Shown: in pieces, positions 12,125-31,199 of the stretch
Layout of the letters: every line of letters begins with the position of its first letter
Position numbering within the stretch: the first letter of the stretch is position 1
Source of the DNA: Aliiruegeria haliotis
GTDB taxonomy: Bacteria > Pseudomonadota > Alphaproteobacteria > Rhodobacterales > Rhodobacteraceae
Assembly: GCF_003003255.1 (NCBI RefSeq)
Contig: NZ_PVTD01000001.1
Coordinates: forward strand, 434,001-498,000
Direction: 5' to 3'
Length of the DNA stretch: 64,000 nt
Program-made: the position numbers and the translations under genes
Notes under the pieces: generated by a model
Seen by the model: the letters and a program-made list of their open reading frames with translations, nothing else
The model's database searches: none
Told to the model about the DNA's origin: nothing

Positions 12125-12267
12125 AATAGCCTCCGTTTTGTACGAAGGGCGGGAAAGGGCGCTCGGATGCTGGGCAGTTGCTGTCTGGCGTCCCGCGGAG
12201 GGGCGAACGGGTTTCCGCTTTCCGGGGCTGCCGGCGAATGATCGGGCAACGGCAAGCGGGAGCGAAC

Positions 12268-13251: not shown

Positions 13252-13287
13252 CATCGGACGAAACACGAACAGCAACAGGAGAGTGAC

Positions 13288-14571: not shown

Positions 14572-14589
14572 CGGTGCCTGACCCGGACC

Positions 14590-14622
14590 CGGGGCGGCGT
14601 CCGACCCTTCCGCGCCGCCCCG
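14590..14622 (+). terminator. Intra-operon stem-loop after the binding-protein gene
   Basis: A 10-bp perfect stem CGGGGCGGCG/CGCCGCCCCG with a 13-nt loop, 18 bp after the stop codon and without a T-tract. It is best read as an attenuator or mRNA-stabilising hairpin between the binding-protein and permease genes. Confidence 0.5.
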
Positions 14623-14674
14623 CTCCCTTCCTGTTTCGCGGAGAAGGGGCGACATTCCTCTCGCCGGAGCTTCG

Positions 14675-15538
14675 ATGCGTAAAATTCTGAGAAACAATCA
14701 CCTTTCAGGCTGGCTGCTGGCCGCGCCCCTGTCGCTCGTGCTGCTGTGCTTCCTCGTGCTGCCGATTGTCATGATCGTGGTAGTTAGCTTCTGGGGGGCG
14801 ACCGAATTTTCCATCTACCCGGCCTTCCAGTTCGACAACTACCAGTTTCTCTTCGGCTCTCCGGTCACGTATTCGGTGTTCCTCAACACCTTTAAATACG
14901 CCGCGATCACATGGGTTTTCACCCTGCTGATCGGCTTCACGGTGGCGTATTTCCTGGCTTTCCATGTCCGCTCTCTCACATGGCAGATCGCGCTGTTCCT
15001 GCTCTGTACCATTCCGTTCTGGACCTCGAACATCATCCGCATGATTTCCTGGATCCCGTTCCTGGGCCGCAACGGGCTGGCGAACTCGACCCTGATCTCC
15101 TGGGGCGTGATCGACGCGCCGGTGGAGTGGCTGCTGTTCTCCGATTTCTCGGTGATCCTGGCCTTCGTGCATCTCTACACGCTGTTCATGGTGGTGCCGA
15201 TCTTCAACACGATGATGCGGATCGACCGGAGCCTGATCGAGGCCGCCTACGACAATGGCGCCTCCGGTTTCCAGACCCTGACCAACGTGATCATTCCGCT
15301 GGCAAAGCCCGGCATCATGATTGGCTCGATCTTTGTGGTCACGCTGGTGATGGGCGATTTCATCACCGTGCGGTTCATGTCCGGCAGCCAGTCGGCGAAT
15401 GTCGGGCGGCTGATTTCAAACGACATCGCGTTGCTGCAATACCCTTCCGCCGCCGCGACTGCCGTGGTGCTGCTGGCGACGGTTCTGCTGATCATCGCGG
15501 TGTTGCTTCGCTTCGTCGATATCCGGAAGGAGCTTTGA
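14675..15538 (+). CDS. ABC transporter permease (PotB-like)
   Basis: A 287-residue inner-membrane permease with about six hydrophobic segments; the first follows a short basic N-terminus. The cytoplasmic EAA loop is visible as E-A-A-Y-D-N-G-A-S-G-F-Q around residues 189-200. It pairs with the next permease (1-bp gap) to form the transmembrane pore for the PotA-like ATPase. The ATG at 14675 was chosen because the hydrophobic segment begins soon after. Confidence 0.9.
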   Translation: MRKILRNNHLSGWLLAAPLSLVLLCFLVLPIVMIVVVSFWGATEFSIYPAFQFDNYQFLFGSPVTYSVFLNTFKYAAITWVFTLLIGFTVAYFLAFHVRSLTWQIALFLLCTIPFWTSNIIRMISWIPFLGRNGLANSTLISWGVIDAPVEWLLFSDFSVILAFVHLYTLFMVVPIFNTMMRIDRSLIEAAYDNGASGFQTLTNVIIPLAKPGIMIGSIFVVTLVMGDFITVRFMSGSQSANVGRLISNDIALLQYPSAAATAVVLLATVLLIIAVLLRFVDIRKEL

Positions 15539-15539
15539 G

Positions 15540-16382
15540 ATGTCCGCCAAACGTCCGCGCAGTTTCTACATCCTCGCCGGTTTCTTCGCGCTGTTCCTGC
15601 TGTTCCTCTACGGGCCGACGCTGACCATCGCGATCCTGTCCTTCCAGGGGCCGGAGGGCGGGCTGACCTTCCCGATGCGCGGCGTCTCGACCCACTGGTT
15701 CGCGGATCTCTTCCGGCAACAGGCGGTGGGCGACATCTGGGGGAGCTTCTCGCGGTCGCTGGTGCTCGGGCTGATGGTCATGGTCACGACGATCGTGGTC
15801 TCGGTCATGGGCGGGCTGGCCTTTCGCAAGCGGTTCGCGGGTTCGACCGTGATCTTCTACCTCGTGATCACCTCGCTGGTGATCCCCTCCATCCTCGTGT
15901 CGCTGGGCGTCGGTTTGATCTTCTCGCAATCGGGGCTGAACGTGCACTGGTCCACCTCCGGCTACGGCGCGCAGCTTACGTGGACACTGCCCTTCGGCCT
16001 GCTGATCATGTTCGCGGTCTTCAACCGCTTCGATCCCAGCTACGAAGAGGCCGCACGCGACCTCGGGGCCAGCGCCTGGCAAACGATCCGTCACGTGGTG
16101 CTGCCGATCATCGCGCCCTCTCTCATCGGCGTGGCGCTTTTCGGTTTCACGCTCAGCTATGACGAATTTGCCCGGACGCTGCTGACCTCCGGCAGCTACA
16201 ACACCCTGCCGCTGGAAATCTACGGCATGACAACCAACGTCACGACGCCGGTGATCTTTGCCCTCGGCACGCTGACCACAATCTTCTCTTTCCTCGTGAT
16301 CGCGGTGTTCCTGCTGGCGGTCTGGGTGCAGTCCCGCCGCCGTGCGCAAAGCGGCTCCGACGCCGGGCAGGGCATGCTCTGA
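15540..16382 (+). CDS. ABC transporter permease (PotC-like)
   Basis: A 280-residue partner permease with about six membrane segments and an EAA loop E-E-A-A-R-D-L-G-A-S-A-W-Q. It starts 1 bp after the previous permease and ends with a TGA directly abutting the racemase ATG. Both permease genes share the codon usage of the operon. Confidence 0.9.
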   Translation: MSAKRPRSFYILAGFFALFLLFLYGPTLTIAILSFQGPEGGLTFPMRGVSTHWFADLFRQQAVGDIWGSFSRSLVLGLMVMVTTIVVSVMGGLAFRKRFAGSTVIFYLVITSLVIPSILVSLGVGLIFSQSGLNVHWSTSGYGAQLTWTLPFGLLIMFAVFNRFDPSYEEAARDLGASAWQTIRHVVLPIIAPSLIGVALFGFTLSYDEFARTLLTSGSYNTLPLEIYGMTTNVTTPVIFALGTLTTIFSFLVIAVFLLAVWVQSRRRAQSGSDAGQGML

Positions 16383-17024
16383 ATGCCGCGCGTTCTGCTG
16401 ATAAACCCCAACAGCACCGAGACGATGACGGCCTCGATGCTGGCCTCGGCCCGCGCGGTTGCGCCGTCCGTCGACTTCACCGGCTGGACATCGAGGGCCG
16501 CCCCGGCGGCGATCCAGGGGCCGGACGATGGCAGGCGCGCCGAGCCGCCGTTGCTGAAGCTGGTGGCGCGGGCCGGGGCGCGGTTCGACTGCATCATCAT
16601 CGGCTGTTTCGACGATACCGGGCTGGCGGCGGCAAGCGACCTCGCGGAGTGTCCCGTGCTGGGGATCGGTCAGGCGGCGTTCTGCATGGCGATGCTGCGC
16701 GGGCTTCGGTTCTCGGTGGTGACGACGTTGCCGGTTTCGGTCCCGGTGATCGAGGAAAACATCCGGCGCTACGGGATGGCTCCCTGGCTTGACCGGGTGC
16801 GGGCGAGCGAGCTGTCGGTTCTGGAGACCGAGGGCGAGGGTGCCGCGCCGTGTGACACGATCGCCCGGGAGGCGGAACTGGCGATTGCCGAGGATGAGAG
16901 CCAGTGCATCATCCTTGGCTGTGGGGGCATGTCGCGGCTGGCGGCCGAGGTGCGGGCACGGGTCTCCGTGCCGGTGATCGACGGCGTCGAGGCCGCGGCG
17001 AGGTTGAGCTCGGCCCTGACGTAA
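16383..17024 (+). CDS. Hydantoin/Asp-Glu racemase family protein
   Basis: A 213-residue member of the Asp/Glu/hydantoin racemase family. The N-terminus has I-N-P-N-S-T-E-T-M, and the two catalytic cysteines lie in I-G-C-F-D-D-T-G and L-G-C-G-G-M. These enzymes epimerise the chiral carbon of hydantoins, allantoin or acidic amino acids. It follows the permease with no gap, so it belongs to the transporter operon, suggesting the imported molecule is a chiral ureide or amino acid. No hydantoinase lies in the operon. Confidence 0.88.
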   Translation: MPRVLLINPNSTETMTASMLASARAVAPSVDFTGWTSRAAPAAIQGPDDGRRAEPPLLKLVARAGARFDCIIIGCFDDTGLAAASDLAECPVLGIGQAAFCMAMLRGLRFSVVTTLPVSVPVIEENIRRYGMAPWLDRVRASELSVLETEGEGAAPCDTIAREAELAIAEDESQCIILGCGGMSRLAAEVRARVSVPVIDGVEAAARLSSALT

Positions 17025-17433: not shown

Positions 17434-19227
17434 TCAGCCTGTGCGGGCGATGTATGCCCGCCAGTCGCCGATGTTGGTGATGTCCTCCCCGCCCTCGGTT
17501 CCAACCGCCTCGCAGAGGAAACCCTGCACCGTCGATCCGTCCTCCAGGTCGATCGTCCCAAGGCCCAGCGGCGCGGGGATACCTTTCAGGAAGCTGCCAA
17601 CCTGGTCACAGGGGACGTCCCAGATTTCGAGCGCGATCGGCGCGCCGGTGCCGGGCTTCCCGCGCAGGAGGCCCGGGCGGCGCGGCGGGCCGCCGGCCAG
17701 CGCGAACAACCGGTAGGCGTCGCTGGTGCGGGCGGTGCGCCGGAACACGGCGTTGCGCTCCGTCAGTTGGTGGTTGAGGGGCAGGCCCGTCATGTGGGCG
17801 CCGCAGACCGCGAGCCCCTGGCTCGTCGGAGCGGCGGGCGGCAGCGTAGCCGGGGCGGGGGTCGCCCATGTGGTGGCGCCCAGTGCCCGGTTGCCAGCAG
17901 CTTCGAGATCCAGTGCGAGCGCGGCCACGAGCGCGTCCTTGCCTGCTTCGGCAAGCAGGGTCACGCTGCCCGGGCGCCCGTCGCTGCGGGCCGGGGTCGG
18001 CACCGCGATGCCGCACATGTCCAGAAGGTTCACGAAATTCGTGTAGGTGCCGAAGTTCGAGTTCGGCGTGACCGGGTCGGCCTCCAGATCGGCGGTGCTG
18101 TAGAAGGTCGGGATGGTCGGCACGCAGAGCGCATCGATCCCCGCAAGGGCGGGTTCCGCCGCGCGGGCAAGTTCCTTCAGCCGGTATATGCCGCGGAAGG
18201 CATCCGCGGCGGACAAGGCCTCTGCCTTGCAGATGATCGCCCGTGTCACCGGGTGGATGGCCTCCGGTTTCCGCCGCAGCAACTCCTCGATCACGGTATA
18301 CCGTTCCGCCACCCAGGCACCCTCATAGAGCATCTCGGCCACGGCATAGAGCGGCGCGAAGTCGATCTCCCGGATCTCGGCGCCGTGGCCGCGCAACAGG
18401 TCGACCGCTTCGGCAAATGACGCCGCCTGCACCGTGTCGCCTAGAAACCGTATGCTGTCTGCGCTCGGAATGCCGATCACGGGGGCCGCCGGTGGGGCGG
18501 TCAATGCCGGTGCGGGGCAGGGTTTTGCGAAGGCATCCGCCGGATCGTGCGCGCAGCAGACCTGGAAGGCGGCATAGGCGTCCTGCACCGTCAGCGCGAA
18601 AATCGAGATGGTCTCGATGGAGCGGCAGGCCGGGACGACACCGCTTGCCGAAAGCGCGCCCAGGGTGGGTTTCAGCCCGACGATATTGTTCAGCGCCGCC
18701 GGCACCCGGCCGGATCCGGCGGTGTCGGTGCCGAGCGCGAGCGCAACGATCCCATGGCCGACCGCCACGCCGGAGCCGCCCGAGGAGCCGCCGGGAACAA
18801 TTTCAGGATCGATGGAGTTCAGCGGCGCGCCGTATGGGGTGCGCACTCCGACAAGGCCGGTGGCGAACTGGTCGAGGTTGGTCTTGCCGACAAACAGCCC
18901 GCCCGCCGCCTTCAGCCGGGCGACGACGAAGGCATCGCCATCGGGGGTATAGGCGTAGTCCGGGCAGGCCGCCGTCGTCGGAAAGCCCGCGACATCGATA
19001 TTGTCCTTCACCGCGAAGGGCACACCCCAGAGCGGTTTCGACGGGTCGAAGGGCCCGAGCGCCCGGGCGGCCTCCAGGGCTTCGGCCTCGGTGGGCATGG
19101 CGAGGAAGATCGCGGGATCGCCAACGGCGGCAATACGAGCGTAGACCTGTCGGATCACCGCCTCCGGGCTGACCCCTCTGGCGTAGGCCGCGTGCAGACC
19201 GTGGAGGGTCATCGGGATATCGGACAT
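17434..19227 (-). CDS. atzF: Allophanate hydrolase
   Basis: A 597-residue amidase-signature enzyme that splits allophanate to ammonia and CO2. The Ser-cisSer-Lys triad is visible: Lys74 (A-V-K-D-N-I-D), Ser148 (G-G-S-S-G-G-S) and nucleophile Ser172 (D-T-A-G-S-G-R), with the usual 24-residue spacing of the two serines. The last 120-130 residues form the extra C-terminal allophanate-hydrolase domain that separates it from plain amidases. No urea carboxylase gene is adjacent, so it probably takes allophanate from biuret made by the BiuH-like enzyme at 24596. A copy of the LysR-flanking element lies 79 bp upstream. Confidence 0.9.
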   Translation of the reverse strand: MSDIPMTLHGLHAAYARGVSPEAVIRQVYARIAAVGDPAIFLAMPTEAEALEAARALGPFDPSKPLWGVPFAVKDNIDVAGFPTTAACPDYAYTPDGDAFVVARLKAAGGLFVGKTNLDQFATGLVGVRTPYGAPLNSIDPEIVPGGSSGGSGVAVGHGIVALALGTDTAGSGRVPAALNNIVGLKPTLGALSASGVVPACRSIETISIFALTVQDAYAAFQVCCAHDPADAFAKPCPAPALTAPPAAPVIGIPSADSIRFLGDTVQAASFAEAVDLLRGHGAEIREIDFAPLYAVAEMLYEGAWVAERYTVIEELLRRKPEAIHPVTRAIICKAEALSAADAFRGIYRLKELARAAEPALAGIDALCVPTIPTFYSTADLEADPVTPNSNFGTYTNFVNLLDMCGIAVPTPARSDGRPGSVTLLAEAGKDALVAALALDLEAAGNRALGATTWATPAPATLPPAAPTSQGLAVCGAHMTGLPLNHQLTERNAVFRRTARTSDAYRLFALAGGPPRRPGLLRGKPGTGAPIALEIWDVPCDQVGSFLKGIPAPLGLGTIDLEDGSTVQGFLCEAVGTEGGEDITNIGDWRAYIARTG

Positions 19228-19305
19228 GCTCGGTTCCTTCGCTCGTTGTCGCACCGGGCAGGCCGGGCCTTGCGCACAGGTTCGATGTTGCAGCGCCCAA
19301 CGCAA

Positions 19306-19343
19306 CTGCTAAGAATTCACAAAAGCGATGCAAAAAATGCACC
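19306..19343 (-). promoter_or_regulatory. LysR operator candidate, copy A (facing atzF)
   Basis: One arm of a 38-bp inverted repeat (34 of 38 positions identical) flanking the lysR gene. Read towards atzF it contains TGCATTTTTTGCA (19329-19341), which fits the LysR-type T-N11-A box with dyad TGCA halves. The conserved part continues into an AATTC-TTAGCAG stretch. It also abuts the lysR start (14 bp), so autoregulation is likely. Confidence 0.75.
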
Positions 19344-19357
19344 GGACGAGGCGGGCG

Positions 19358-20254
19358 ATGAAACACCTTCAGACATTTCGCTACATCGAGGGCGTCGTGC
19401 GCGCCGGGTCGATCCGCAAGGCGGCAGATGACATGAACATCACCGCGTCTGCGCTCAACCGCCGGATACAGCGGTTCGAGGAGGAGTTCGGCTCGGAAAT
19501 CTTCGAGCGCCTGCCGCGCGGGGTCCGGCTCAACCCGGCCGGGGAATTGCTGGTCCAGCATTTCCGGGCGCAGGAATCGGACCTGCGGCGGGTCCAGAGC
19601 CAGGTTGCCGACCTCTCCGGCGAGCGACGCGGCCATGTGAGCGTCGCCTGTTCACAGGCGCTCATCCCCTATTTCCTGCCTCGGCAGATCGCTGCCTACC
19701 GAACCCATCACCCGGGCGTCAGTTTCTCGGTGACGGTGCGGGATCGTGAGGCGGCGGAACGGGACCTTGCCACCTTCAGCAGCGACCTGGCGCTGGTTTT
19801 CGAGCCTGTGCACCTTGTCGATTTCGAAGTGCTCATGGCGGTGCCGCAGATCATTCACGTGCTGATCCGGGAGGGGCACCCGCTGGCGAACCGGGAGGAG
19901 GTGCGGTTGCGAGATTGCCTCGATCATCCGCATGTGCTGCCGACACGACACTACGGCGTCAGGGCCTTGCTGGAGGATGCGGCGACGCGCGGGTCGCGGC
20001 CGCTGCGGCCCATCGCCGAATCCGACAGCTTCGACTTCATGCGCCACTACGTGGCCCACGAGGACGCGGTTGCCTTCCAGATCCCGATCGGCTTGCAGCC
20101 GCGCCCCGAGGATGGGTTGGCGGTCCGCCCGATCTCCACGCGCGATGTGCCCGCGGGCAGCCTGCTCCTTGGGCAGATGCGAGGACGCACGCTGCCGGTG
20201 GCCTCCGCCCGCTTCGCGCAGGGATTGGCGAAGGCGCTGGAGGCCTTTCGATAG
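19358..20254 (+). CDS. LysR family transcriptional regulator
   Basis: A 298-residue regulator with an N-terminal winged helix (G-S-I-R-K-A-A-D-D-M-N-I-T-A-S-A-L-N-R-R-I) and a C-terminal periplasmic-binding-like effector domain. Start codons at 19328 and 19337 are possible, but both lie inside the conserved operator; the ATG at 19358 has a GAGGCGGG site and begins M-K-H-L-Q-T-F-R, as is usual. It lies between atzF and the BMP/biuret operon with operator copies on both sides. The effector may be biuret, allophanate or the imported substrate. Confidence 0.9.
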   Translation: MKHLQTFRYIEGVVRAGSIRKAADDMNITASALNRRIQRFEEEFGSEIFERLPRGVRLNPAGELLVQHFRAQESDLRRVQSQVADLSGERRGHVSVACSQALIPYFLPRQIAAYRTHHPGVSFSVTVRDREAAERDLATFSSDLALVFEPVHLVDFEVLMAVPQIIHVLIREGHPLANREEVRLRDCLDHPHVLPTRHYGVRALLEDAATRGSRPLRPIAESDSFDFMRHYVAHEDAVAFQIPIGLQPRPEDGLAVRPISTRDVPAGSLLLGQMRGRTLPVASARFAQGLAKALEAFR

Positions 20255-20291
20255 TCCAAACTTCCAGCGCTGACGGCAGCTTGCCTAGAGT

Positions 20292-20329
20292 GGTGCATTT
20301 TTTGCATCGCTTTGAGGAATTATTAGCAG
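20292..20329 (+). promoter_or_regulatory. LysR operator candidate, copy B (facing the BMP/biuret operon)
   Basis: The second arm of the 38-bp inverted repeat. The 22-bp core at 20292-20313 is the exact reverse complement of 19322-19343 and holds TGCATTTTTTGCA at 20294-20306. It lies 90 bp upstream of the BMP gene start, nearly the same distance as copy A from atzF, and in the same orientation relative to the gene it would control. Confidence 0.75.
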
Positions 20330-20418
20330 ACGCCAACAGCGCTCGGGCGGTCTACCGTTTCCGAGAACCGAACATGTGCCGCCGGACCCGGCGCACGGGC
20401 AGCAGTTGGAGCAATGCC

Positions 20419-21540
20419 ATGACCACTTTCAGAAACCTCGATCGCAGGAGCTTCCTCGGGACAACGGCGGCGGCGCTCGGCGCGGCGGCTCTTGGCGGGC
20501 TGGCGCGGCCAGCGCAGGCGGCGGGCGACCTGTCCGTGGGCTTCATCTATGTCGGGCCGAAGGATGATTTCGGCTACAACCAAGCCCATGCGGAAGGCGC
20601 CGCGGCGGTCAAGGCGATGGCAGGCGTGACCGTTCTGGAAGAGGAGAACGTGCCGGAGAGCCAGGATGTCCAGAACACCATGGAATCCATGATCAATTTC
20701 GATGGGGCGACGTTGCTCTTCCCGACCTCCTTCGGCTATTTCAATCCCCATATCCTGGAACTGGCGCCGAAATATCAGGACGTCCGGTTCGAGCATTGCG
20801 GCGGTCTCTGGGCCGAGGGCAATCCGACCAACGCAGGCTCCTACTTCGGCTACATCGGTATGGGGCAGTACCTCAACGGCATCGCCGCCGGTCATGCCAC
20901 CAAGAGCAAGAAGATCGGCTTCGTCGCCGCCAAGCCGATCCCGCAGGTTCTCAACAATATCAATTCCTTCCTGCTGGGAGCCCGGGCGGTCGACCCGGAG
21001 ATCACCTGCCAGGTCATCTTCACCGGAGAATGGTCGCTGGCGGTCAAGGAGGCGGAGGCCACCAACGCACTGGCCGACCAGGGCTGCGACGTCATCACCT
21101 GCCACGTCGACGGACCGAAAGTGGTCTGCGAGACGGCGGTCTCGCGAGGCGCTTATGTCTGTGGCTACCATGCCGACCAGAGCCCCCTTGCCGGCGACAT
21201 GTATCTTACCGGGGCGGAGTGGAACTGGGCGGGCGTCTACACCGACCTCGTCGCCAGTTTCATGGCCGGGGAGGAGATCCCGAACTTCCTGCGCGGTGGG
21301 CTCGCGGACGGGTTCATCAAGATGAGCCCGCTCGGTCCTGCCGTTTCCGATGCCGGCCGTGCCCAGTTCGAGGCCGTGAAGGCAGAGATCATGGCCGGTG
21401 GGTTCGCGGCGATCAAGGGGCCGCTGAAGGACAACGCGGGCAATATCATCGCGGCCGACGGCGAAGCTTTCGTGGAGACGGATGTGAAGCTGGAGAGCAT
21501 GGACTACCTCGTCGACGGTGTCATGGGGTCCACCAGCTGA
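20419..21540 (+). CDS. BMP family ABC transporter substrate-binding protein, Tat-exported
   Basis: A 373-residue basic-membrane-protein (BMP/Med, PnrA-like) family binding protein, a family known for nucleoside and purine-related ligands. A twin-arginine signal (D-R-R-S-F-L-G) leads to a cut near A-Q-A at about residue 34. Family marks are F-I-Y-V-G-P-K-D-D-F-G-Y-N, then E-E-N-V-P-E and F-P-T-S-F-G-Y near the first ligand loop. The frame is open further upstream, but this ATG starts the signal peptide. It opens the operon with two permeases, ATPase and catabolic enzymes. Confidence 0.92.
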   Translation: MTTFRNLDRRSFLGTTAAALGAAALGGLARPAQAAGDLSVGFIYVGPKDDFGYNQAHAEGAAAVKAMAGVTVLEEENVPESQDVQNTMESMINFDGATLLFPTSFGYFNPHILELAPKYQDVRFEHCGGLWAEGNPTNAGSYFGYIGMGQYLNGIAAGHATKSKKIGFVAAKPIPQVLNNINSFLLGARAVDPEITCQVIFTGEWSLAVKEAEATNALADQGCDVITCHVDGPKVVCETAVSRGAYVCGYHADQSPLAGDMYLTGAEWNWAGVYTDLVASFMAGEEIPNFLRGGLADGFIKMSPLGPAVSDAGRAQFEAVKAEIMAGGFAAIKGPLKDNAGNIIAADGEAFVETDVKLESMDYLVDGVMGSTS

Positions 21541-21541
21541 C

Positions 21542-22651
21542 ATGAGCGCCGCCGACCAGATACCGACACGGGCGCATCTGCCCGGAGCCCGGATCCTTGC
21601 GGGTCTGGCGCTTCGGGCGGAGGCCGTGGCGATCCCGCTCGCCGCGCTCCTCGCTGGCTTCGCAGCCTTCAGCCTGTTCCTGCTGGTGATGGGGAAATCG
21701 CCGGCGGAGTTCTACGGGCTGGTCTGGAAGGCGGGGTTCTCCTCGGCCTTTTCCTGGCAGAACACCCTGTCGCGCGTCGCCCCGCTGGTTCTGGCCGCGC
21801 TCTGCGTGGCGCTGCCGGCGCGCCTCGGGCTCGTCGTCATCGGCGGCGAGGGCGCGATCGTGCTCGGCGGGCTGGCAGCAGCGGTGACCGGAACGGCGGT
21901 CGCGGGCGTGCCCGGCTATGCCGGGTTGATCCTGATGGCGCTGGCCGCGATGGCCATCGGCGGCTTCTGGATCGGTGCCATTGGCGCGTTGCGAATTCGA
22001 CGCGGGGTGAACGAGACCATCTCCTCGCTGTTGATGGCCTATATCGCCATCGCGCTGTTCAACTACTTCGTCGAGGGCCCTTTCCGCGATCCGGCGAGCC
22101 TGAACAAACCCTCCACCGCGCCGTTGGCAGAGGCGCTCAGGGTCGGTGACATGCCCTGGATCGCCGCCCATTGGGGCGTCGTGGCGGGTGTGCTGGCCTG
22201 CCTGGTGAGCTGGGTCCTGATCGACCGAACGACGCTTGGCTTCGCGGCGCGCATCGCCGGGGACAACGTCCGGGCCGCGCAGGTGCAGGGCCTGCCGGTG
22301 GCGCGTCTGGTCATCGGTTTCACAGCGCTTGGCGGCGCGTTCGCCGGGCTTGCGGGCTTCTTCGAGGTCGCCGCCGTGCACGGCTCCGCCAATGCCTCGC
22401 TGATCGCGGGCTATGGCTATACCGGTATCCTCGTGGCCTTTCTTGCCCGTCACAACCCGCTGGCGATTCTGCCGGTCGCGGTGCTGCTGGGCGGGTTCGA
22501 GGCTTCCAGCGGACTGATCCAGCGCCGGATGGACCTGCCGGATGCCACGATCCTGGTGTTCGAGGGCATGGTCTTTGTCATCATCCTTCTCAGCGAGGCG
22601 CTCTATGGACGGTTTCGTATCTTCACACCCGCCTTCTGGGAGCGCCGCTGA
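21542..22651 (+). CDS. ABC transporter permease (NupB/YufP-like)
   Basis: A 369-residue inner-membrane permease of the branched-chain/nucleoside (BPD_transp_2) type with about 8-10 hydrophobic segments. The conserved G-G-E-G-A-I-V-L-G-G segment near residues 104-113 and G-G-A-F-A-G-L-A-G are typical. It starts 1 bp after the BMP stop and ends in TGATG, overlapping the next permease by 1 bp. Confidence 0.9.
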   Translation: MSAADQIPTRAHLPGARILAGLALRAEAVAIPLAALLAGFAAFSLFLLVMGKSPAEFYGLVWKAGFSSAFSWQNTLSRVAPLVLAALCVALPARLGLVVIGGEGAIVLGGLAAAVTGTAVAGVPGYAGLILMALAAMAIGGFWIGAIGALRIRRGVNETISSLLMAYIAIALFNYFVEGPFRDPASLNKPSTAPLAEALRVGDMPWIAAHWGVVAGVLACLVSWVLIDRTTLGFAARIAGDNVRAAQVQGLPVARLVIGFTALGGAFAGLAGFFEVAAVHGSANASLIAGYGYTGILVAFLARHNPLAILPVAVLLGGFEASSGLIQRRMDLPDATILVFEGMVFVIILLSEALYGRFRIFTPAFWERR

Positions 22652-23577
22652 TGGACTCGGTTGAAATCGGCCTTTGGGGCGTGCCGCTGGCCATCCTCGG
22701 CGGTGCCATCCGGGTCTCGACCCCCTTCATCTTCGTCTCCCTCGGTGAATGCCTGACCGAACGGTCGGGGCGGATCAACCTCGGGCTGGAGGGCACGCTG
22801 GTGTTCGGCGCGATGAGCGGCTACGCCATCGCCTACGAAACCGGCTCGCCCTTCGCCGGCGTTCTGGCCGCGGCGGTTTCGGGGGCCTGTTTCGGACTGC
22901 TCCACGGCTGGATCTGCAAGTTCAAGGGTGTGAACGACATCGCCGTGGGCATTGCGATGATGCTGCTCGGCATGGGGCTCGCCTTCTTTTTCGGCAAGCC
23001 CTACATCCAGCCCGTTGCGCCCGATCTGCCGTCGATCAACTTCGGCTGGTGGTCGGATGTGCCGCAGGTGCGCGCGGCGTTGCAGGTCAACGTGTTGTTC
23101 ATTCTGGGCGGACTGCTGGCGCTGGCCATGGCGTGGATGTTCCGCAGCACACGGGTCGGGCTGACGGTGCGGGTCGTGGGCGACAGCACAGACGCGGCTC
23201 GCGCGATGGGGCTCGATCCCGACCGGGTGCGGCTGCTTTCCACCGCGATGGGCGGCGCGCTTGCCGGGGTCGGCGGGGCCTATCTGTCGCTTTTTTACCC
23301 GGGAAGCTGGACGGAGGGGATCTCCTCCGGGCAGGGCCTGATGGCCATCGCGCTGGTGATTTTTGCCCGCTGGAACCCGGTAAACTGTTTCTGGGCGTCG
23401 CTCCTCTTCGGTGGGGCGGGTGCGCTTGGACCGGCCCTGCAATCGATCGGCATTTCAGAGGGATACTACCTCTTCTTCGCGGCACCCTATGTGCTGACAC
23501 TGGGCCTGCTGATCCTGACCTCCTCCCCCGACCGCGCCATGCAGGGCGCGCCGCTCGAACTCAGCCTCACGAAGTAA
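22651..23577 (+). CDS. ABC transporter permease (NupC/YufQ-like)
   Basis: A 308-residue partner permease with about eight hydrophobic segments. It has the N-terminal E-R-S-G-R-I-N-L-G-L-E-G motif of nucleoside-type permeases, and G-D-S-T-D-A-A-R-A-M-G-L in the cytoplasmic coupling loop. It overlaps the upstream gene by 1 bp and precedes the formamidase gene by 11 bp. Confidence 0.9.
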   Translation: MDSVEIGLWGVPLAILGGAIRVSTPFIFVSLGECLTERSGRINLGLEGTLVFGAMSGYAIAYETGSPFAGVLAAAVSGACFGLLHGWICKFKGVNDIAVGIAMMLLGMGLAFFFGKPYIQPVAPDLPSINFGWWSDVPQVRAALQVNVLFILGGLLALAMAWMFRSTRVGLTVRVVGDSTDAARAMGLDPDRVRLLSTAMGGALAGVGGAYLSLFYPGSWTEGISSGQGLMAIALVIFARWNPVNCFWASLLFGGAGALGPALQSIGISEGYYLFFAAPYVLTLGLLILTSSPDRAMQGAPLELSLTK

Positions 23578-23588
23578 GGAACCACAAG

Positions 23589-24596
23589 ATGAACGGCCTA
23601 GGCGGTCTGAACAAATCGGAAAACGGCCTGGTAATCGGCCTTGTGCAGTTGCAGCTGCCGGTGGTGGAAACCAAAGCCCAGCTGACCGCGCAGACCGCCC
23701 GTGTGGTCGAGCTGGTGGCCAAGGCGCGGCGCAACCTTGCCACGATGGATCTGGTGGTGTTCCCGGAATACATGCTGCACGGCCTGTCGATGGACACCAA
23801 CCCCGAGATCATGTGCTCCATGGACGGCGCGGAGGTGGCGGCGCTGAAACAGGCCTGTATCGACAACGCGATCTGGGGCTGTTTCTCGATCATGGAGGCC
23901 AATCCCGGCGGCAATCCCTACAACACCGGCCTGATCATCGACGACACCGGCGAGGTGCAGCTCTACTACCGCAAGATGCACCCCTGGGTGCCGGTCGAGC
24001 CGTGGGAGCCGGGGGACACCGGCATTCCGGTCTGCACCGGCCCCGGCGGTGCGAAGATCGGGCTGATCATCTGCCACGACGGCATGTTCCCGGAAATGGC
24101 GCGCGAGGCGGCCTACAAGGGGGCGGAGATCATGATCCGCACCGCAGGCTACACGGCGCCGATCCGGGAGGCATGGCGTTTCACCAACCGCGCCAACAGC
24201 TTCTGCAACCTGATGGTCACGGCAAATGTCTGCATGTGCGGATCGGACGGCACGTTCGACAGCATGGGCGAGGGCATGATCGTGGACTTCGATGGCAGCG
24301 TCCTGGCACACGGGCAGACCGGCCGCCCCGACGAGATCATAACCGCGGAGGTGCGCCCCGATCTGGTGCGGGAAGCGCGGCTCGGCTGGGGCGTCGAGAA
24401 CAACCCGTACCAGTTTGGTCACCGCGGCTATGTCGCCGTGAAGGGTGGGGCGCAGGACTGCCCCTATACCTACATGACCGACCTCGCGGCGGGCGCCTAC
24501 CGCGTGCCATGGGAGGACGATGTCGCCGTGACCGACGGCACGGTCTGCGGCTTCCCCGCGCCATCCCGAAGCTTCGGTGAAAAGGACCCCAGCTGA
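23589..24596 (+). CDS. amiF: Formamidase (nitrilase superfamily, AmiF type)
   Basis: A 335-residue cytoplasmic carbon-nitrogen hydrolase closely resembling Helicobacter AmiF, which hydrolyses formamide to formate and ammonia. The Glu-Lys-Cys triad is Glu60 (V-V-F-P-E-Y), Lys129 (Y-Y-R-K-M-H-P-W) and Cys162 (I-C-H-D-G-M). Further marks are F-S-I-M-E-A-N-P and [12 protein letters not shown]. Its stop overlaps the biuret hydrolase start (TGATG). In this setting the substrate may be formamide itself or a formyl/carbamoyl fragment from a larger nitrogen compound. Confidence 0.9.
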
Positions 24597-25276
24597 TGCC
24601 AACGATCGACAGTCACCCCTATGCCTGGCCATACAACGGCGATCTGCGGCCCGGCAACACCGCCCTGATCGTGATCGACATGCAGACCGATTTCTGCGGT
24701 ACCGGCGGCTATGTGGATGCGATGGGCTATGACCTGTCGCTGACACAAGCTCCCATCGCGCCGATCAAGGCCCTGATGGCGGGTATGCGTGCGAAGGGCT
24801 ACCACATCATCCACACTCGCGAAGGGCACCGGCCCGACCTTTCCGATCTGCCCGCGAACAAGCGCTGGCGCAGTCAACAGATCGGCGCGGGCATCGGCGA
24901 TCCCGGCCCCTGCGGCAAGATCCTTGTGCGCGGAGAACCCGGCTGGGACATCATCCCGGAGCTGTATCCGCTGCCCGGAGAGGTCATCATCGACAAGCCC
25001 GGGAAGGGCAGTTTCTGCGCTACGGACCTGGAGCTGATCCTGCGCATGCGGGGGATCGAGAACCTGATCCTGACCGGGATCACCACCGACGTCTGTGTCT
25101 CCACCACCATGCGCGAAGCCAATGACCGGGGTTTCGAATGCGTGATCGCGGAGGATTGCTGCGGTGCCACCGATCCCGGAAACCATGCCGCCGCCATCAA
25201 GATGGTGACCATGCAGGGCGGCGTCTTTGGCGCGGTGAGCGACAGCGCCAGCCTGATCGCCGGGTTGCCGGGATGA
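24596..25276 (+). CDS. biuH: Biuret amidohydrolase (isochorismatase-like cysteine hydrolase)
   Basis: A 226-residue isochorismatase-fold cysteine hydrolase. The triad is Asp28 (V-I-D-M-Q-T-D-F), Lys134 (I-D-K-P-G-K-G-S-F) and Cys167 (T-T-D-V-C-V-S-T-T). These sit at a constant offset of 8 from Asp36, Lys142 and Cys175 of Rhizobium BiuH as I remember them. The N-terminal [18 protein letters not shown] and W-D-I-I-P-E-L-Y-P stretches are also BiuH-like. It would hydrolyse biuret to allophanate and ammonia, feeding the allophanate hydrolase at 17434. It overlaps the ABC ATPase gene by 4 bp. Confidence 0.87.
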
Positions 25277-26805
25277 CCCGCACGCTGACGACAGAGGCCG
25301 GGGCGATCAGCGTCGAGGCGTTGCACATGACCATGCGGTTCGGGGAGTTCACCGCGCTCGACGACGTCTCGATCAACATCCAGGCGGGGTCGTTTCACGC
25401 GCTGCTGGGCGAAAACGGCGCCGGAAAGTCGACGCTGGTGAAGTGTATCATGGGCTTTTACCACGCCACCGCGGGAGAACTGCTGGTTGCTGGCCGCGAA
25501 GCCTTCATGACCGATCCGAAGATCGCACAGTCGCTGGGGCTCGGCATGGTGTACCAGCATTTCACGCTGGTCCCGTCGCTGACGGCGGCGGAAAACCTGG
25601 TGATCAGCCGCGCCGACGCGCCCGGCGTGATCAACTGGCGCCGCGAGCGGGAGAAGCTCGCGCAGTTCATGGCGACGATGCCGTTCTCGGTTCCGCTGGA
25701 TCTGCCGGTCAGCCGGCTCGCCGCGGGCGAGAAACAGAAGCTGGAGATCCTCAAGCAACTTTATCTCGGCAACCGGTTCCTCATCCTCGACGAGCCGACG
25801 TCGGTGCTGACCCCGGCGGAAGCCGACGAGGTGCTGGGCCATGTCCGCGCCCTGACCCGGGCCGGCGAGATCACCGTGCTGATGATCACCCACAAGTTCC
25901 GCGAGGTCACCGCCTTTGCCGACGAGGTGTCGATCCTGCGGCGCGGGCGCTACGTGGGCGGTGGCAAGGTCGGCGAGATGTCGGTCGAGGAGATGAGCCG
26001 CGCCATGATGGGCACGGCCCCGGAGGTCAGCAAGCGGCCCCGTGCGGCGACCAACGGGCGGGAGATCATGCGCCTGAGCGGTGTGGAGGCACAGGACCGC
26101 ACCGGCCTGAAGACCATACGGATCGACGAGATCAGCCTGAAGTCGGGTGAGATCCTCGGGGTCGCCGGGATCTCCGGCAACGGGCAGATGGAGTTGATGG
26201 AGGTCCTGACCGGGCAACGCCGCATGACCGGCGGCGAGATCACGGTGAACGGCCAGCCCTTCGCCGCAACACGCGCCGAGGCCAGGGCGCACAAGCTGCG
26301 CTACCTGCCTGAGGAGCCGCTGCGCAATGCCTGCGCCCCGCGGATGAGCGTAGCGGAGAACCTTGCCTTCCGGACCTTCGACACGGGCGGGAACGGGCGC
26401 ACCCGCTTCTGGAAGGACGACCGTGCCATTGCGCGCAACGCGTCCACGCTGATCGAGGATTTCAAGGTCAAGACATCCTCGCCCGCGGCCCGGATCGCGT
26501 CGCTCTCGGGCGGCAATGTCCAGCGCGCGGTGCTGGGCCGGGAACTGACGGGCGAGGTGGACGCGCTGATCGTGTCCAACCCGTGCTTCGGGCTGGACTT
26601 CGCCGCCGTCTCCTCGATCCGCGACCGGTTGGTCGAGGCCCGCAACAACGGCACGGCGATCCTGCTGATCAGCGAGGATCTCGACGAGATCATGGAGCTT
26701 TCCGACCGGATCCTCGTGATGTCCGAGGGGCGGGTGGCCTTCGAGACGCCGATCGCATCCGCGGATGTCTCCGAGATCGGGCAACACATGGCGGGGCATG
26801 GCTGA
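25273..26805 (+). CDS. ABC transporter ATP-binding protein, double ATPase (NupA/YufO-like)
   Basis: A 510-residue fused ATPase. The first half has Walker [10 protein letters not shown] and Walker B F-L-I-L-D-E-P-T. The second half has a degenerate Walker A-like G-I-S-G-N-G-Q and a signature-like L-S-G-G-N-V-Q, with S-N-P-C-F-G-L-D replacing the usual Walker B tail; this asymmetry is normal for sugar/nucleoside double ATPases. It overlaps biuH (ATGA) and the next hydrolase (TGATG), so the importer and enzymes are translated from one message. Confidence 0.92.
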
Positions 26806-27470
26806 TGGCACGGATCCCGGCACAGCCCTTCGACTTCGCCATCGACCCGGCGCAGGTCGCGCTGGTGGTGATCGACATGCAGCGCGATTTCGTGGAACCG
26901 GGCGGCTTCGGCGCCAGCCTTGGCAACGACGTGGCGCCCCTTCAGGCCATCATTCCGACGGTTCGGCGGCTGCTCGACGGGTTCCGGGCCGCGGGGCTGC
27001 CGGTTTACCACACGCGGGAATGCCACCGGGCGGATCTTTCGGACTGCCCGCCCTCCAAGCGCTTGCGTGGTGACCCGGCGTTGCGGATCGGCGACGACGG
27101 ACCGATGGGCCGTATCCTGATCGCCGGTGCCCCCGGCGCCGAAATCGTACCGGAACTGGCGCCGCTGCCGGGCGAAGTGGTGATCGACAAGCCGGGCAAG
27201 GGGGCGTTTTACGCGACCGGCCTGTCCGAGGTGCTGGCCACCCGGAAAATCCGCCAACTGGTCGTGGCGGGTGTCACCACAGAGGTCTGCGTGCAGACGA
27301 CCATGCGGGAGGCCAACGACAGGGGGTTCGACTGCATTCTCGCGACCGACGCGACCGAGAGCTATTTCCCCGCCTTCAAGGCGGCGGCCATCGACATGAT
27401 CACCGCACAGGGCGGGATCGTCGGATGGGCCGCGCCGACCGACGCGATCCTGGGAGGGTTGGATGGCTGA
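26805..27470 (+). CDS. Second isochorismatase-like cysteine hydrolase, BiuH-related
   Basis: A 221-residue cysteine hydrolase of the same family as the biuret hydrolase gene 1.5 kb upstream, but clearly divergent. Triad positions are Asp24, Lys129 and Cys162 (T-T-E-V-C-V-Q-T-T). It keeps [10 protein letters not shown] and D-K-P-G-K-G-A-F but has F-Y-A-T-G where BiuH has F-C-A-T-D. It probably cleaves a related ureido or carbamoyl amide upstream or downstream of biuret; ureidoacrylate- or N-carbamoyl-type substrates are alternatives. It overlaps the flanking genes by 1 and 8 bp. Confidence 0.85.
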
Positions 27471-27798
27471 GAGCATGAGCATCGCGGAGCTGCTGCCAGA
27501 GGGCTGGGCCTCCCTGGAGTTCGAGCCGTTCAGTGACGGGGTCGAGATCTGTCGCCTGTTCAGTGGCGGGCCCGACGTAGCGCTCTTGCGGTACTGCGAG
27601 GGCGCGTCGGTGCGGCGGCACCGTCACACGGGACTGGAAACCATCCTTGTCCTCTCCGGCAGCCAGAGCGACGAGCGCGGGACCTACCCGGCCGGGTCGA
27701 TCGTTTTCAATCCGGTGGGCACCGACCACAGGGTCTGGTCGACCGATGGGTGTACCGTGTTGATCCAGTGGGAAAAACCGGTCGAGTTTCTCGAATAG
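27463..27798 (+). CDS. Cupin domain protein
   Basis: A 111-residue single-domain cupin. The metal-type motif appears as [10 protein letters not shown], followed by [12 protein letters not shown] and the second-motif His in G-T-D-H-R-V-W. It overlaps the previous gene by 8 bp and is the last gene of the eight-gene operon; a stem-loop follows. It could be an isomerase, a lyase or an accessory sensor; function is unknown. Confidence 0.8.
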
Positions 27799-27835: not shown

Positions 27836-27862
27836 CCGGGTGACCGGGATCAGGTCACCCGG
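27836..27862. terminator. Bidirectional terminator between convergent operons
   Basis: A 10-bp perfect stem CCGGGTGACC/GGTCACCCGG with a 7-nt loop. It lies 37 bp after the cupin stop and overlaps the last codons and stop of the convergent FAH-family gene, so it can serve both directions. Confidence 0.6.
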
Positions 27863-28536
27863 ACCGCGAGCGTCCCGAGGCCGTCCACTGAGGCCTCCAG
27901 CCTGTCACCGCGCGCCACCGGCCCCACGCCTGACGGGGTGCCGGAGAGGATCACGTCGCCAGCCGCCAGCTCGAAGTAGGTCGACAGGTAGGAGATCATT
28001 TCCGCCACTTTCCAGATCATCTGGTTCAGGTTGCCCTTTTGGCGGAGCTCCCCGTTCACCTTCAACTGCACCGCGCCGGTGTCGGGATGACCGACCGAGT
28101 CCACGGTATGGATCGGACCAACCGGCGCGGAGCGTTCGAACGCCTTGCCGATTTCCCACGGTCGTCCCATTTTCTTCATCTGCCCCTGAAGATCGCGTCG
28201 CGTCATATCCAGCGCCACGCCATAGCCATAAACGTGGTCCAGCGCCCGACCCTGCGGGATGTCGCGCCCACCGGAGTGCAGCGCCACCAGCATCTCGACC
28301 TCGTGATGGACATCGCTCGATTGCGGCGGGTAGGGGAAGTCTCCTGACGGATCGAGGTTGTCGGGGTTTTTCTGGAAGAAGAACGGCGGTTCCCGGTCGG
28401 GGTCATGGCCCATCTCGATGGCGTGGGCGGCATAGTTGCGGCCGATGCAATAGACGCGGCGCACCGGAAAGGTGGCCTTGGTTCCCACCACGGGCAGGCC
28501 CACGACGGGCGGCAGATCTATCACGTGGGGCGTCAT
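27850..28536 (-). CDS. Fumarylacetoacetate hydrolase family protein
   Basis: A 228-residue single-domain FAH-fold protein. Family marks are Y-C-I-G-R-N-Y-A-A-H-A-I-E-M, the metal ligands in H-H-E-V-E-M (Glu/Glu) and the Asp in Y-G-V-A-L-D-M-T-R-R-D, and I-L-S-G-T-P-S-G-V-G. The size and the K-A-F-E-R-S-A-P-V-G segment suit fumarylpyruvate/acylpyruvate hydrolases that cut C-C bonds in aromatic or 2-oxo acid breakdown. It is transcribed alone, convergent with the biuret operon. Confidence 0.88.
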   Translation of the reverse strand: MTPHVIDLPPVVGLPVVGTKATFPVRRVYCIGRNYAAHAIEMGHDPDREPPFFFQKNPDNLDPSGDFPYPPQSSDVHHEVEMLVALHSGGRDIPQGRALDHVYGYGVALDMTRRDLQGQMKKMGRPWEIGKAFERSAPVGPIHTVDSVGHPDTGAVQLKVNGELRQKGNLNQMIWKVAEMISYLSTYFELAAGDVILSGTPSGVGPVARGDRLEASVDGLGTLAVRVT

Positions 28537-29131
28537 GGCGGTCTCCGTGGATGGGGTCGGGGGCGTATGCGGCGAGTGTGGACCAGCTTGGCGGTGTTGA
28601 GCAATCCGAAGCCTGTCAGGGGCAGGCGGTGTTGCGGAGTTGCGATCGGCCTCCTTGGCAGGCTGACCGTCGACCTGCCTTGGTTTTCCTGCGCGCGAGG
28701 CATTTTTGAAGGTGCAGGGACGGACTTCCCGGCGCTCCGTTCGTGGGCGGAGGAGGGCCGCGCTTGTTCTGCCGGGCGGCGGTTGTCGGCTCGCTGCGGC
28801 ATGTAGCGCGTGCTCCCGTGGTTGTTCCTCACGGGAATGCGAAGGTTCACGCCAACACTGGTGCCGATCGCTTCGTCATCGGCTCACCGGGGCCGTGACC
28901 CTGCGACCGCCTGCGCCGTCGCGATGCCGGAACCGCTGGCGGACCGGTGAGTAGGAGTGGCGGCGGCAGCGGCCCGATGGTCGCGTTCTGCGAAGGCCGC
29001 GCGGACCGCCCGTGGGCACGGCCTGACCGTTGGATTTGTCGCCGCCACGGGCTTCCGCCGGTCGGAGTTCGCAGGTTAGGTTGCGGGCCAGATACCCGCC
29101 CGGAGAGCGGGACGATTCGGAGGCCAATCCC
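28537..29131. other. Intergenic stretch without a recognised gene
   Basis: About 595 bp between the divergent FAH and ThDP genes. It presumably contains both promoters. Open frames here are Arg/Pro/Gly-rich and carry no motif. A GGAGG ribosome site for the ThDP gene is at its right edge. Confidence 0.5.
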
Positions 29132-30844
29132 ATGCCCAACCACGATCGAACCCCGTCGGCGCCCGGGCCGGCTGTCCGACACGGTGGACGTATCCTCGCT
29201 GACCAGCTCGCGATTCTCGGGGCGGAGAAGGTCTTCTGCGTGCCCGGGGAGAGTTTCCTCGGCCTGCTGGACGGGCTCTATGACCATCGCGACCGCATCG
29301 ACGTGGTCACTTGCCGTCACGAATCCGGCGCCGCCAACATGGCCGATGCCTATGGCAAGCTGACCGGTCGGCCGGGAATCTGCGCCGTGACCCGCGGCCC
29401 CGGTGCCACCAACGCTTCCAATGGGGTACACACGGCCTTCCAGGACAGTACGCCGATGATCCTTCTGGTGGGGCAGGTCTCGCGGAAGATGATGGACCGC
29501 GAGGCCTTTCAGGAAATCGACTACCGCCGGATGTTCGGCGAGATGGCCAAGTGGATTGCGCAGATCGACGATGTCGCCCGCATCCCCGAATACCTGTCCC
29601 GTGCCTGGCACGTGGCCATGTCGGGCCGCCCGGGGCCGGTCGTGCTCGCACTTCCGGAGGATGTCCTCTCCGCCCGCGCCATGGTCGACGATGCACGGCC
29701 GGCCAGTGTTGCGCGCGGCGCGCCGGAGTCGTCCGCAATCGCGCGCCTTGGCGATATGCTGTCGGAGGCCCGGAAACCGCTGCTCGTGCTTGGCGGGCCG
29801 GGCTGGAGCGCGCAGGCCGCCCGGCTGGCCGCGGACGTCGCGGACCGGTTCGACCTGCCCGTCGCGACGACGTTCCGCTGCCAGGACTACATCGACAACG
29901 GCCATCCCAATTATGGCGGCGTCATCGGCATCGCGCCGGTGCCGGAGTTGGCCCGGAAGGTGCGCGAGGAGGTCGACCTGCTGATCACGGTCGGCAGCCG
30001 CTGGGGAGAGATGACGACCCAGGGCTATACCCTGATCGACAGTCCGGTCCCGCAGATGCGCCTGGTGCATGTCCACCCCGGCCCGGAGGAGCTGGGCCAT
30101 GTCTATGCCCCGGATCTCTCCATTGCCAGCGGCGCGGAGGCATTCCTTGGCGCGATGCTGGACCTGAAGGTCGGCCATCGCGCCGATCCCGGCTGGACAC
30201 GGGGGTTCCGGGCCGACTACGAGGCCTTCCTTACCCCCACACAGGTGCCCGGCGCGCTCAATATGGGAGAGGTCATCCGGCACCTTTCCAACACGCTGCC
30301 AGCGGACACGATCTATACCAATGGTGCCGGGAACTATGCCGTCTGGCTGCACAGGTTTCATTCCCACCGGGGCTACCGCACGCAACTGGCACCGACGTCT
30401 GGCTCCATGGGCTACGCGGTGCCGGCCGCCGTGGCGGCGAAACTGGTGCATCCGGATCGCAGCGTCGTTTCCGTTTCCGGCGACGGCTGTTTCCTGATGA
30501 CGGCACAGGAGCTCGCCACCGCGCGCGCGCAGGGCCTCGCCATCATCTATCTCGTGGTGAACAACGGCATGTACGGCACGATCCGTATGCATCAGGAGCG
30601 CAACCATCCCGGGCGGGTGATTTCCACGGCGCTGACGAACCCCGATTTCGTTGCCTTTGCCGGGGCCTTCGGGATCCCGGGCGAGGTCGTCACCGAAACG
30701 GAGGCGTTCGCCGCCGCCCTTGACCGGGCACGCGCCTCCGACGACGGATACCTCATCGAACTCAGGGTTGATCCCGAGGCACTGACACCCACCCAATCGC
30801 TCTCTGCCGCTCGCGCGCAGGGAGAGGCTGAAAAAACAGGATAG
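29132..30844 (+). CDS. Thiamine-diphosphate-dependent enzyme (acetolactate synthase-like)
   Basis: A 570-residue ThDP enzyme with the three-domain layout of acetolactate synthase and relatives. The catalytic Glu is in C-R-H-E-S-G-A near residues 57-63, a central FAD/nucleotide-like domain follows, and the ThDP motif runs from G-D-G-C-F-L-M-T to L-V-V-N-N-G-M-Y-G. It is not linked to an ilvN regulatory subunit or branched-chain genes, so it is probably a catabolic 2-oxo-acid decarboxylase, carboligase or oxalyl/sulfo-type enzyme rather than IlvB. The NIPSNAP gene follows 4 bp later. Confidence 0.87.
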   Translation: MPNHDRTPSAPGPAVRHGGRILADQLAILGAEKVFCVPGESFLGLLDGLYDHRDRIDVVTCRHESGAANMADAYGKLTGRPGICAVTRGPGATNASNGVHTAFQDSTPMILLVGQVSRKMMDREAFQEIDYRRMFGEMAKWIAQIDDVARIPEYLSRAWHVAMSGRPGPVVLALPEDVLSARAMVDDARPASVARGAPESSAIARLGDMLSEARKPLLVLGGPGWSAQAARLAADVADRFDLPVATTFRCQDYIDNGHPNYGGVIGIAPVPELARKVREEVDLLITVGSRWGEMTTQGYTLIDSPVPQMRLVHVHPGPEELGHVYAPDLSIASGAEAFLGAMLDLKVGHRADPGWTRGFRADYEAFLTPTQVPGALNMGEVIRHLSNTLPADTIYTNGAGNYAVWLHRFHSHRGYRTQLAPTSGSMGYAVPAAVAAKLVHPDRSVVSVSGDGCFLMTAQELATARAQGLAIIYLVVNNGMYGTIRMHQERNHPGRVISTALTNPDFVAFAGAFGIPGEVVTETEAFAAALDRARASDDGYLIELRVDPEALTPTQSLSAARAQGEAEKTG

Positions 30845-30848
30845 CCGG

Positions 30849-31199
30849 ATGATCGTCGAAGAACGGATCTACACGTTGCAGATCGGCGCCGTGCCGGAAT
30901 ACCTCAGGCTCTACGAGGCGGAAGGGCTTGCTATCCAGCGCCCGATCCTTGGCCGCATGGTGGGCTATTTCCGCACCGAGATCGGGCCGCAGCACCAGAT
31001 CGTGCACATGTGGGCCTACAAGGATCTTGCGGAGCGGTCAGAACGCCGGGCGCGGCTGCTCGCCGATCAGCGCTGGATCGACTACGCGAAAAAGACCCGG
31101 CCGCTCCAGATAAGCCAGGAGAACAAGATACTCGTACCCGCGCCCTTCAGCCCCTGGGCGGAGGACGATCCAGCGCTCGATATGGCCACTGACCGCTGA
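30849..31199 (+). CDS. NIPSNAP family protein
   Basis: A 116-residue ferredoxin-like-fold protein of the NIPSNAP family. It begins I-V-E-E-R-I-Y-T-L-Q-I-G, and the family's V-H-M-W-A-Y-K-D-L-A-E-R segment is present. Members are often fused to or paired with metabolic enzymes and have no established activity. The 4-bp gap to the ThDP enzyme suggests the two proteins act together. Confidence 0.88.
   Translation: MIVEERIYTLQIGAVPEYLRLYEAEGLAIQRPILGRMVGYFRTEIGPQHQIVHMWAYKDLAERSERRARLLADQRWIDYAKKTRPLQISQENKILVPAPFSPWAEDDPALDMATDR

Follow-up and report, generated by a model that had tools for sequence, protein, structure and literature searches.

The 64,000-nucleotide stretch of Aliiruegeria haliotis DNA analyzed here (the window; contig NZ_PVTD01000001.1, positions 434,001 to 498,000) carries, between positions 17434 and 27798, a set of genes linked to a LysR-family regulator that appears to take nitrogen from triuret and biuret, a reading to which we assign a probability of about 0.9. 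The gene identities, gene order, conservation, residues and regulatory boxes come from this analysis, and the reactions of the three hydrolases TrtA, BiuH, and AtzF are taken from the literature on characterized enzymes. The pathway and its upstream substrate are already known; what is added is the association of a formamidase gene, amiF, with the pathway genes, a change in the binding pocket of the accompanying importer, and a pair of identical putative LysR boxes.

The second of two isochorismatase-like enzymes in the locus (26805–27470, plus strand) is identified as the triuret hydrolase TrtA, because it is closest to known TrtA and retains every residue named for that enzyme. Its best match in the PDB is Herbaspirillum TrtA (6XIX, E 8.5e-89), with the best BiuH reaching only 2.5e-63; identity to the Herbaspirillum protein is 63% with no internal gaps, and the score against the BiuH equivalog model (255.8) falls under the cut-off of 370. 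All 11 residues implicated in catalysis, substrate contact or discrimination between triuret and biuret (D24, F29, F35, N41, E72, K129, K132, E160, C162, Q202, and I205, with D24/K129/C162 as the triad) are kept (PMC7948467). Characterized TrtA cuts a terminal C–N bond, leaving a carbamate that then decarboxylates, and its preference for triuret is more than 100-fold against every other substrate tested (PMC7948467). The initial annotation had described this protein as a second BiuH-related cysteine hydrolase and left the upstream substrate of the locus unexplained; its identity as TrtA had gone unrecognized, and that identity points to triuret as the missing substrate. Triuret is a known product of uric acid oxidation (PMC7948467), in keeping with the proposal in the same annotation that a carbamoylated ureide from purine oxidation is the likely substrate. 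Its further suggestion of an undescribed pathway is not supported, since a 2020 publication already sets out the pathway (PMC7948467) and bmpA-nupABC importer genes beside trtA, biuH, and atzF were described in nitrifiers in 2025 (PMC12625717).

The first isochorismatase-like enzyme (24596–25276, plus strand) is assigned as the biuret hydrolase BiuH. It matches PDB entry 6AZO at E 1.5e-130, is 82% identical to the Rhizobium enzyme, scores 419 bits against the NF050097 equivalog (cut-off 370) and has the BiuH-type residues Y53, D173, Q215, and V218. Rhizobium triad positions 36, 142, and 175 correspond to D28, K134, and C167 in the window, so that the constant offset from the Rhizobium enzyme noted earlier is borne out, at −8. 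On the minus strand, atzF (17434–19227) encodes a full-length, two-domain allophanate hydrolase in which both the amidase and the C-terminal AH_C domain were found with Pfam; its best PDB match is 4GYR (E 2.2e-160, residues 4–594), and it scores 749.6 bits against TIGR02713 (cut-off 511). In the published pathway, triuret is converted via carboxybiuret to biuret, then to allophanate, and finally to NH3 and CO2 (PMC7948467). By the same route, TrtA in the window would remove one ammonia from triuret to give carboxybiuret, loss of CO2, spontaneous or perhaps aided by the cupin described below, would yield biuret, and BiuH and AtzF would in turn form allophanate and break it down to ammonia and CO2. 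The cyanuric acid hydrolase model PF09663 had no match in the genome and also matched none of the control genomes; in a separate search it scored 451 bits on an AtzD-type protein in a Geminicoccus metagenome-assembled genome (locus L061).

Between atzF and the hydrolase genes lie lysR (19358–20254, plus strand; Pfam HTH_1 and LysR_substrate) and the genes of an ATP-binding cassette (ABC) importer, all on the plus strand: a BMP-type periplasmic binding protein (20419–21540), permease 1 (21542–22651) and permease 2 (22651–23577), both BPD_transp_2 proteins, and, beyond amiF (23589–24596) and biuH, an ATPase with two ABC_tran stretches (25273–26805; Pfam/NCBIfam). A small cupin (Cupin_7; 27463–27798, plus strand) follows trtA. 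Start codons were picked from the translations. From the BMP gene through the cupin the reading frames overlap or are separated by gaps of at most 11 bp, and a single transcript is therefore likely. The initially annotated genes are confirmed at their stated positions, and the reading of the locus as a LysR-linked biuret/allophanate regulon with BMP-type importer and formamidase is supported. Among the 25 NCBIfam matches listed for the lysR product, none reached its cut-off, the best being CidR (88.6 against 415).

The arrangement recurs widely. A contig scan with a two-sequence TrtA alignment supplied the best 80 of at least 577 confirmed relatives, and the gene order of these 80 loci was established by tblastn with the window proteins; 15 loci with less than 7 kb of upstream or less than 3 kb of downstream sequence were left out, and 65 were counted. 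The BMP gene, biuH, and the ATPase gene were each present in 64 of the 65, the cupin in 53, atzF in 45, and amiF in 36. The 80 loci span Rhizobium, Mesorhizobium, Rhodobacteraceae, Reyranella, and Aquabacterium, among others. On pRL10 of R. johnstonii 3841 (locus L068), the strain of the characterized BiuH, the order BMP–permease 1–permease 2–amiF–biuH–ATPase–trtA–cupin is that of the plus strand of the window. Two results on atzF tell against our reading: atzF was not seen within the examined stretch in 20 of the 65 loci, and the search showed neither lysR nor atzF in the 20.6 kb around the R. johnstonii locus, though PMC7948467 speaks of an operon with AtzF. Of the 394 genomes sampled from the family of A. 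haliotis, 41 had a TrtA/BiuH-like match with E no higher than 1e-50. The only other listed genome of the genus (G007) had no such match and no AmiF match, and the operon is therefore patchily distributed.

The amiF product is a formamidase of the nitrilase superfamily (CN_hydrolase), scoring 562 bits against NF009803 (cut-off 406) and matching the PDB formamidases 5G3O and 2DYU. The Glu-Lys-Cys triad, which had been called intact, is so in every case: H. pylori E60, K133, and C166, together with the wall residues W137 and Y192, are identical in 91 of 91 aligned rows (77 distinct sequences, from copies both linked and unlinked to biuH). Wall residues Trp137 and Tyr192 are said to admit formamide alone (PMC10781810). 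A search with the formamidase model detected amiF in 23 of 394 genomes of the family sample, 15 of 398 of the phylum sample and 12 of 385 of the class sample, giving 46 distinct genomes within the one phylum that these samples cover. In 38 of the 46, amiF lies directly before biuH; these include 23 of 23 from the family, where the order is always permease 2–amiF–biuH. Six more genomes have biuH within 9 kb of amiF (G428, G501, G586, G630, G667, and G759); in G1027, amiF follows two permease genes near a contig end, with biuH on another contig, and in G486 the two genes are likewise on different contigs. Thus biuH was found in all 46 amiF-bearing genomes of the three samples. All 23 amiF genomes of the family fall among the 41 with a TrtA/BiuH-like match (hypergeometric 2e-26, relatedness ignored), but the adjacency of amiF and biuH is the stronger argument, and amiF belongs to the triuret/biuret operon. 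Fixed differences between the AmiF proteins and those of H. pylori and B. cereus were considered as a signal of operon membership and dropped; the unlinked AmiF of G486 (L140) falls in the same close group, at 79% identity to that of the window. In G486 (L162), amiF (7827–8843, minus strand) adjoins a large open reading frame that by eye resembles a molybdopterin oxidoreductase, and the two are possibly a formate-handling pair.

Formylurea and biuret arise from oxidized nucleobases, and the role proposed for AmiF, as an accessory formamidase, would follow from the chemistry of its neighbors. BiuH or TrtA might convert formylurea to N-formylcarbamate, which would decarboxylate to formamide, and AmiF would then release formate and ammonia, finishing formylated ureides; a TrtA-type cut in formylurea would leave N-formylcarbamate and, from it, formamide, the substrate of AmiF. 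This coupling is offered tentatively and we rate it as rather doubtful, given several results that count against it. With formylurea, ammonia release by TrtA is slow, only 0.29% of the rate with triuret (PMC7948467). For BiuH, nothing was found in the literature on formylurea, a word absent from PMC5806882. Among the 65 TrtA loci, 29 lack amiF yet have the importer, biuH, and trtA; the core therefore works without amiF. Finally, positions separating amiF-plus from amiF-minus loci were sought in BiuH (64 rows), TrtA (65) and BMP (64), and none fell on a residue known for catalysis or substrate contact; the smallest p values, uncorrected for relatedness, were 2.5e-4 for BiuH (602 tests), 3.2e-4 for TrtA (815), and 9.3e-6 for BMP (1407).

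Several of these observations would also fit AmiF being no more than a scavenger of formamide, placed in the operon through common habitats or a common importer and with no chemical coupling to BiuH or TrtA, and to this we give close to an even chance. AmiF has the catalytic and wall residues of a strict formamidase (PMC10781810), amiF is optional (36 of 65 loci), G486 carries it on a different contig from biuH, and no known active-site position of BiuH or TrtA tracks it. A free-standing scavenger should nevertheless sometimes occur without biuH, which was seen in 0 of 46 genomes, and all 23 amiF genes of the 394-genome family sample occupy the same place between permease 2 and biuH. The firm linkage of amiF to biuH (38 of 46 adjacent), when the triuret route needs no formamidase, and the slight activity of TrtA on formylurea (PMC7948467) could also be accommodated by the initial idea of an undescribed ureide pathway, which would serve chiefly for some formylated or carbamoylated ureide apart from triuret and in which both BiuH-like enzymes act after a further, unspecified step. 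That idea is very improbable, given that the second enzyme has 11 of 11 TrtA residues, that characterized TrtA prefers triuret so strongly (PMC7948467), and that the 29 loci without amiF keep the importer, biuH, and trtA.

The importer would bring in a small planar ureide through its binding protein, two permeases, and ATPase. Its BMP protein (Pfam Bmp) has AtzT as best PDB match (6PI5, E 2.3e-58), a protein with an affinity for guanine of about 110 nM, in which Tyr45 and Trp194 clamp the base and Glu165, Asn218, Asn220, Ser97, and Phe98 are also in the pocket (PMC6834077). AtzT numbering was transferred on the condition that eight named residues agree, and a single offset satisfied this; the comparison covered 72 BMP rows with identity of 50% or more (71 distinct genes), 65 from TrtA loci with biuH and 7 from wider amiF loci. 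The clamp residues Y45 and W194, with S97 and F98, are present in the window; across the 72 rows, Ser97, Phe98, and Trp194 are invariant and Tyr45 occurs in 69 (Trp in two, a gap in one). At position 165, where AtzT has Glu, the window has Gln, as do 70 of the 72 rows, with Ser in the other two; a further row set apart at 29% identity (L097) has Ala. As a control, 30 of the BMP matches listed from a family sample of 120 genomes were compared: Gln occupies position 165 in 10 of 10 operon copies, and Glu in 18 of 19 generic paralogs (the 19th has a gap) as well as in AtzT and 3S99. An intermediate BMP protein (L176) has Leu. Exchanges N218H and N220D were rejected as operon-specific, as His218 and Asp220 are common in generic paralogs and in purine-bound 3S99. 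What stands against the generic copies is E165Q, together with Y45 where those copies usually have Trp. Accordingly, of the nucleobase-type importer initially annotated, the AtzT-type clamp is upheld and one base-reading residue is changed.

We read E165Q as a probable retuning of the importer away from purines. The alternative, in which the transporter is of the usual purine or nucleoside kind and the operon serves to import purines and not ureides, has in its favor that the nearest solved protein binds guanine (PMC6834077), that Ser97, Phe98, and Trp194 are unchanged, with H218 and D220 shared with generic BMP proteins and purine-bound 3S99, and that a homolog is labeled a nucleoside transporter in PMC12625717; it is unlikely in view of the near-uniform replacement of the guanine-contacting Glu165 in operon copies, set against its retention in generic paralogs, and of the operon having no purine-degrading gene. 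If uptake of ureides is combined with the proposed AmiF step, the operon might be a general collector of open-chain ureides from nucleobase oxidation (triuret, biuret, and formylurea), with AmiF clearing formamide and with a Glu-to-Gln exchange that has shifted the BMP importer from purine to ureide ligands. Such a general role is a speculative extension that we consider improbable as a whole; were it true, the AmiF reaction would be a step devoted to ureide catabolism, and the cupin would decarboxylate carboxybiuret, perhaps along with N-formylcarbamate. In one other locus (L164:14605-18001), the genes BMP–permease 1–permease 2–biuH–ATPase are followed by a small open reading frame that looks deaminase-like by eye and by parts of a second ABC importer, 35% and 30% identical to the window ATPase and permease 1, which hints at a nucleobase link.

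The regulator gene is bracketed by a 47-nt inverted repeat, 83% complementary, that contains two putative LysR boxes with the identical palindromic core GGTGCATTTTTTGCATC. One, in the gap separating atzF from lysR, is about 100 bp upstream of the atzF start (19327–19343, minus strand), and the other about 110 bp upstream of the start of the BMP gene (20292–20308, plus strand). The core is a T-N11-A palindrome, a pattern typical of LysR sites, and these are its only exact copies in the genome assembly. A looser pattern, GGTGCA-N5-TGCAYC, has five matches in the assembly, against one for a control pattern, and among the five only the two flanking lysR share spacer and full core. When up to one mismatch was allowed, the window gave 4 matches (two palindromic sites, each read on either strand), where shuffled sequence averaged 0.79; 5 of 100 shuffles reached 4, so the test is weak alone, and the argument is carried by the count across the whole genome and by conservation among relatives. 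In L033, 20 of 22 positions are kept in the atzF-side box and 21 of 22 in the BMP-side box. A related lysR occurs in 19 loci; in 6 of these a box outscores the best one (16/22) from the 61 loci lacking such a gene, and in the other 13 none does, which counts against our reading. The earlier claim that atzF and the importer operon share a regulatory element is supported, an identical core preceding each. The two boxes flanking lysR suggest that atzF and the importer operon are controlled together, with the LysR protein probably acting at one box on each side of its gene in response to a putative ligand.

The Geminicoccus locus (L061:2459-10685) combines atzF, lysR, biuH, trtA, and the cupin with an NMT1-type ABC transporter, an Amidohydro_1 protein, and the AtzD-family (PF09663) protein. 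Boxes with no more than one mismatch, four in all, precede both of its units (8 two-strand matches against 0.13 expected; 0 of 200 shuffles), suggesting that one regulator may serve both ureide/triuret and cyanuric acid use.

The cupin has an intact metal-ligand pattern: all 60 cupin rows compared retain His53, His55, Glu59, and His89. A natural guess is that it acts as the carboxybiuret decarboxylase in place of TrtB. Left to itself, carboxybiuret decays with a half-life of about 20 min (PMC7948467). In cupin-less loci, inspection by eye of the open reading frames downstream of trtA for a gene in its place revealed only repeats within lineages. Convergent with the cupin gene is a fumarylacetoacetate hydrolase (FAH)-family gene (27850–28536), which was rejected as a member of the system, having no counterpart in the 80 TrtA loci at the cut-offs used; in ammonia-oxidizing archaea, FAH genes have been reported near biuH (PMC12625717). 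At 29030–31199 the window has a gene for a thiamine-diphosphate enzyme followed by one for a NIPSNAP-family protein. On the other side of the locus, 12178–17024 encodes an ABC transporter (a TOBE_2 ATPase, an SBP_bac_8 protein, and two BPD_transp_1 permeases) and, directly after it, an Asp/Glu/hydantoin racemase-family protein; the racemase-family gene (16383–17024) was rejected on the same grounds.

What seemed a new pathway is thus a published one, and the points of interest are narrowed to the formamidase among triuret genes, the ligand of the importer, and the cupin at the carboxybiuret step. Triuret and biuret are fertilizer impurities and triuret also arises from uric acid, which makes the answers relevant to how bacteria in soil and on plants use nitrogen. 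No description of the amiF association, of E165Q or of the paired boxes was found in the literature searched, outside which most subscription papers lie, and no paper there joined formylurea with formamidase. The words formamidase and cupin do not occur in the examined text of PMC7948467 (supplementary figure S1 being separate from it), nor does biuret in PMC13209695, which mentions allophanate hydrolase and formamidase.

Compared with the TrtA-BiuH-AtzF pathway of Herbaspirillum sp. BH-1 and R. leguminosarum 3841 (PMC7948467), the window has the same three enzymes with the named residues kept, but its atzF is divergent, behind lysR with the paired boxes, and amiF and the cupin lie inside the operon. 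The trtA-biuH-atzF-bmpA-nupABC clusters of nitrifiers likewise keep the importer and three hydrolases together; their description mentions neither formamidase nor cupin in its main text, and some of them have trtB, allFGHK or an FAH-family gene (PMC12625717). AmiF of the window shares the Glu-Lys-Cys triad and the Trp137/Tyr192 wall with the formamidases of H. pylori (2DYU) and B. cereus (5G3O), to which it is 44% and 49% identical, and differs in sitting in a ureide operon. The BMP protein belongs to the same BMP-type family as the guanine- and 2-hydroxyatrazine-binding AtzT (6PI5; PMC6834077) and keeps its Tyr45, Trp194, Ser97, Phe98, and Asn169, whereas Gln replaces Glu165, and His and Asp replace Asn218 and Asn220, the latter two as in generic copies.

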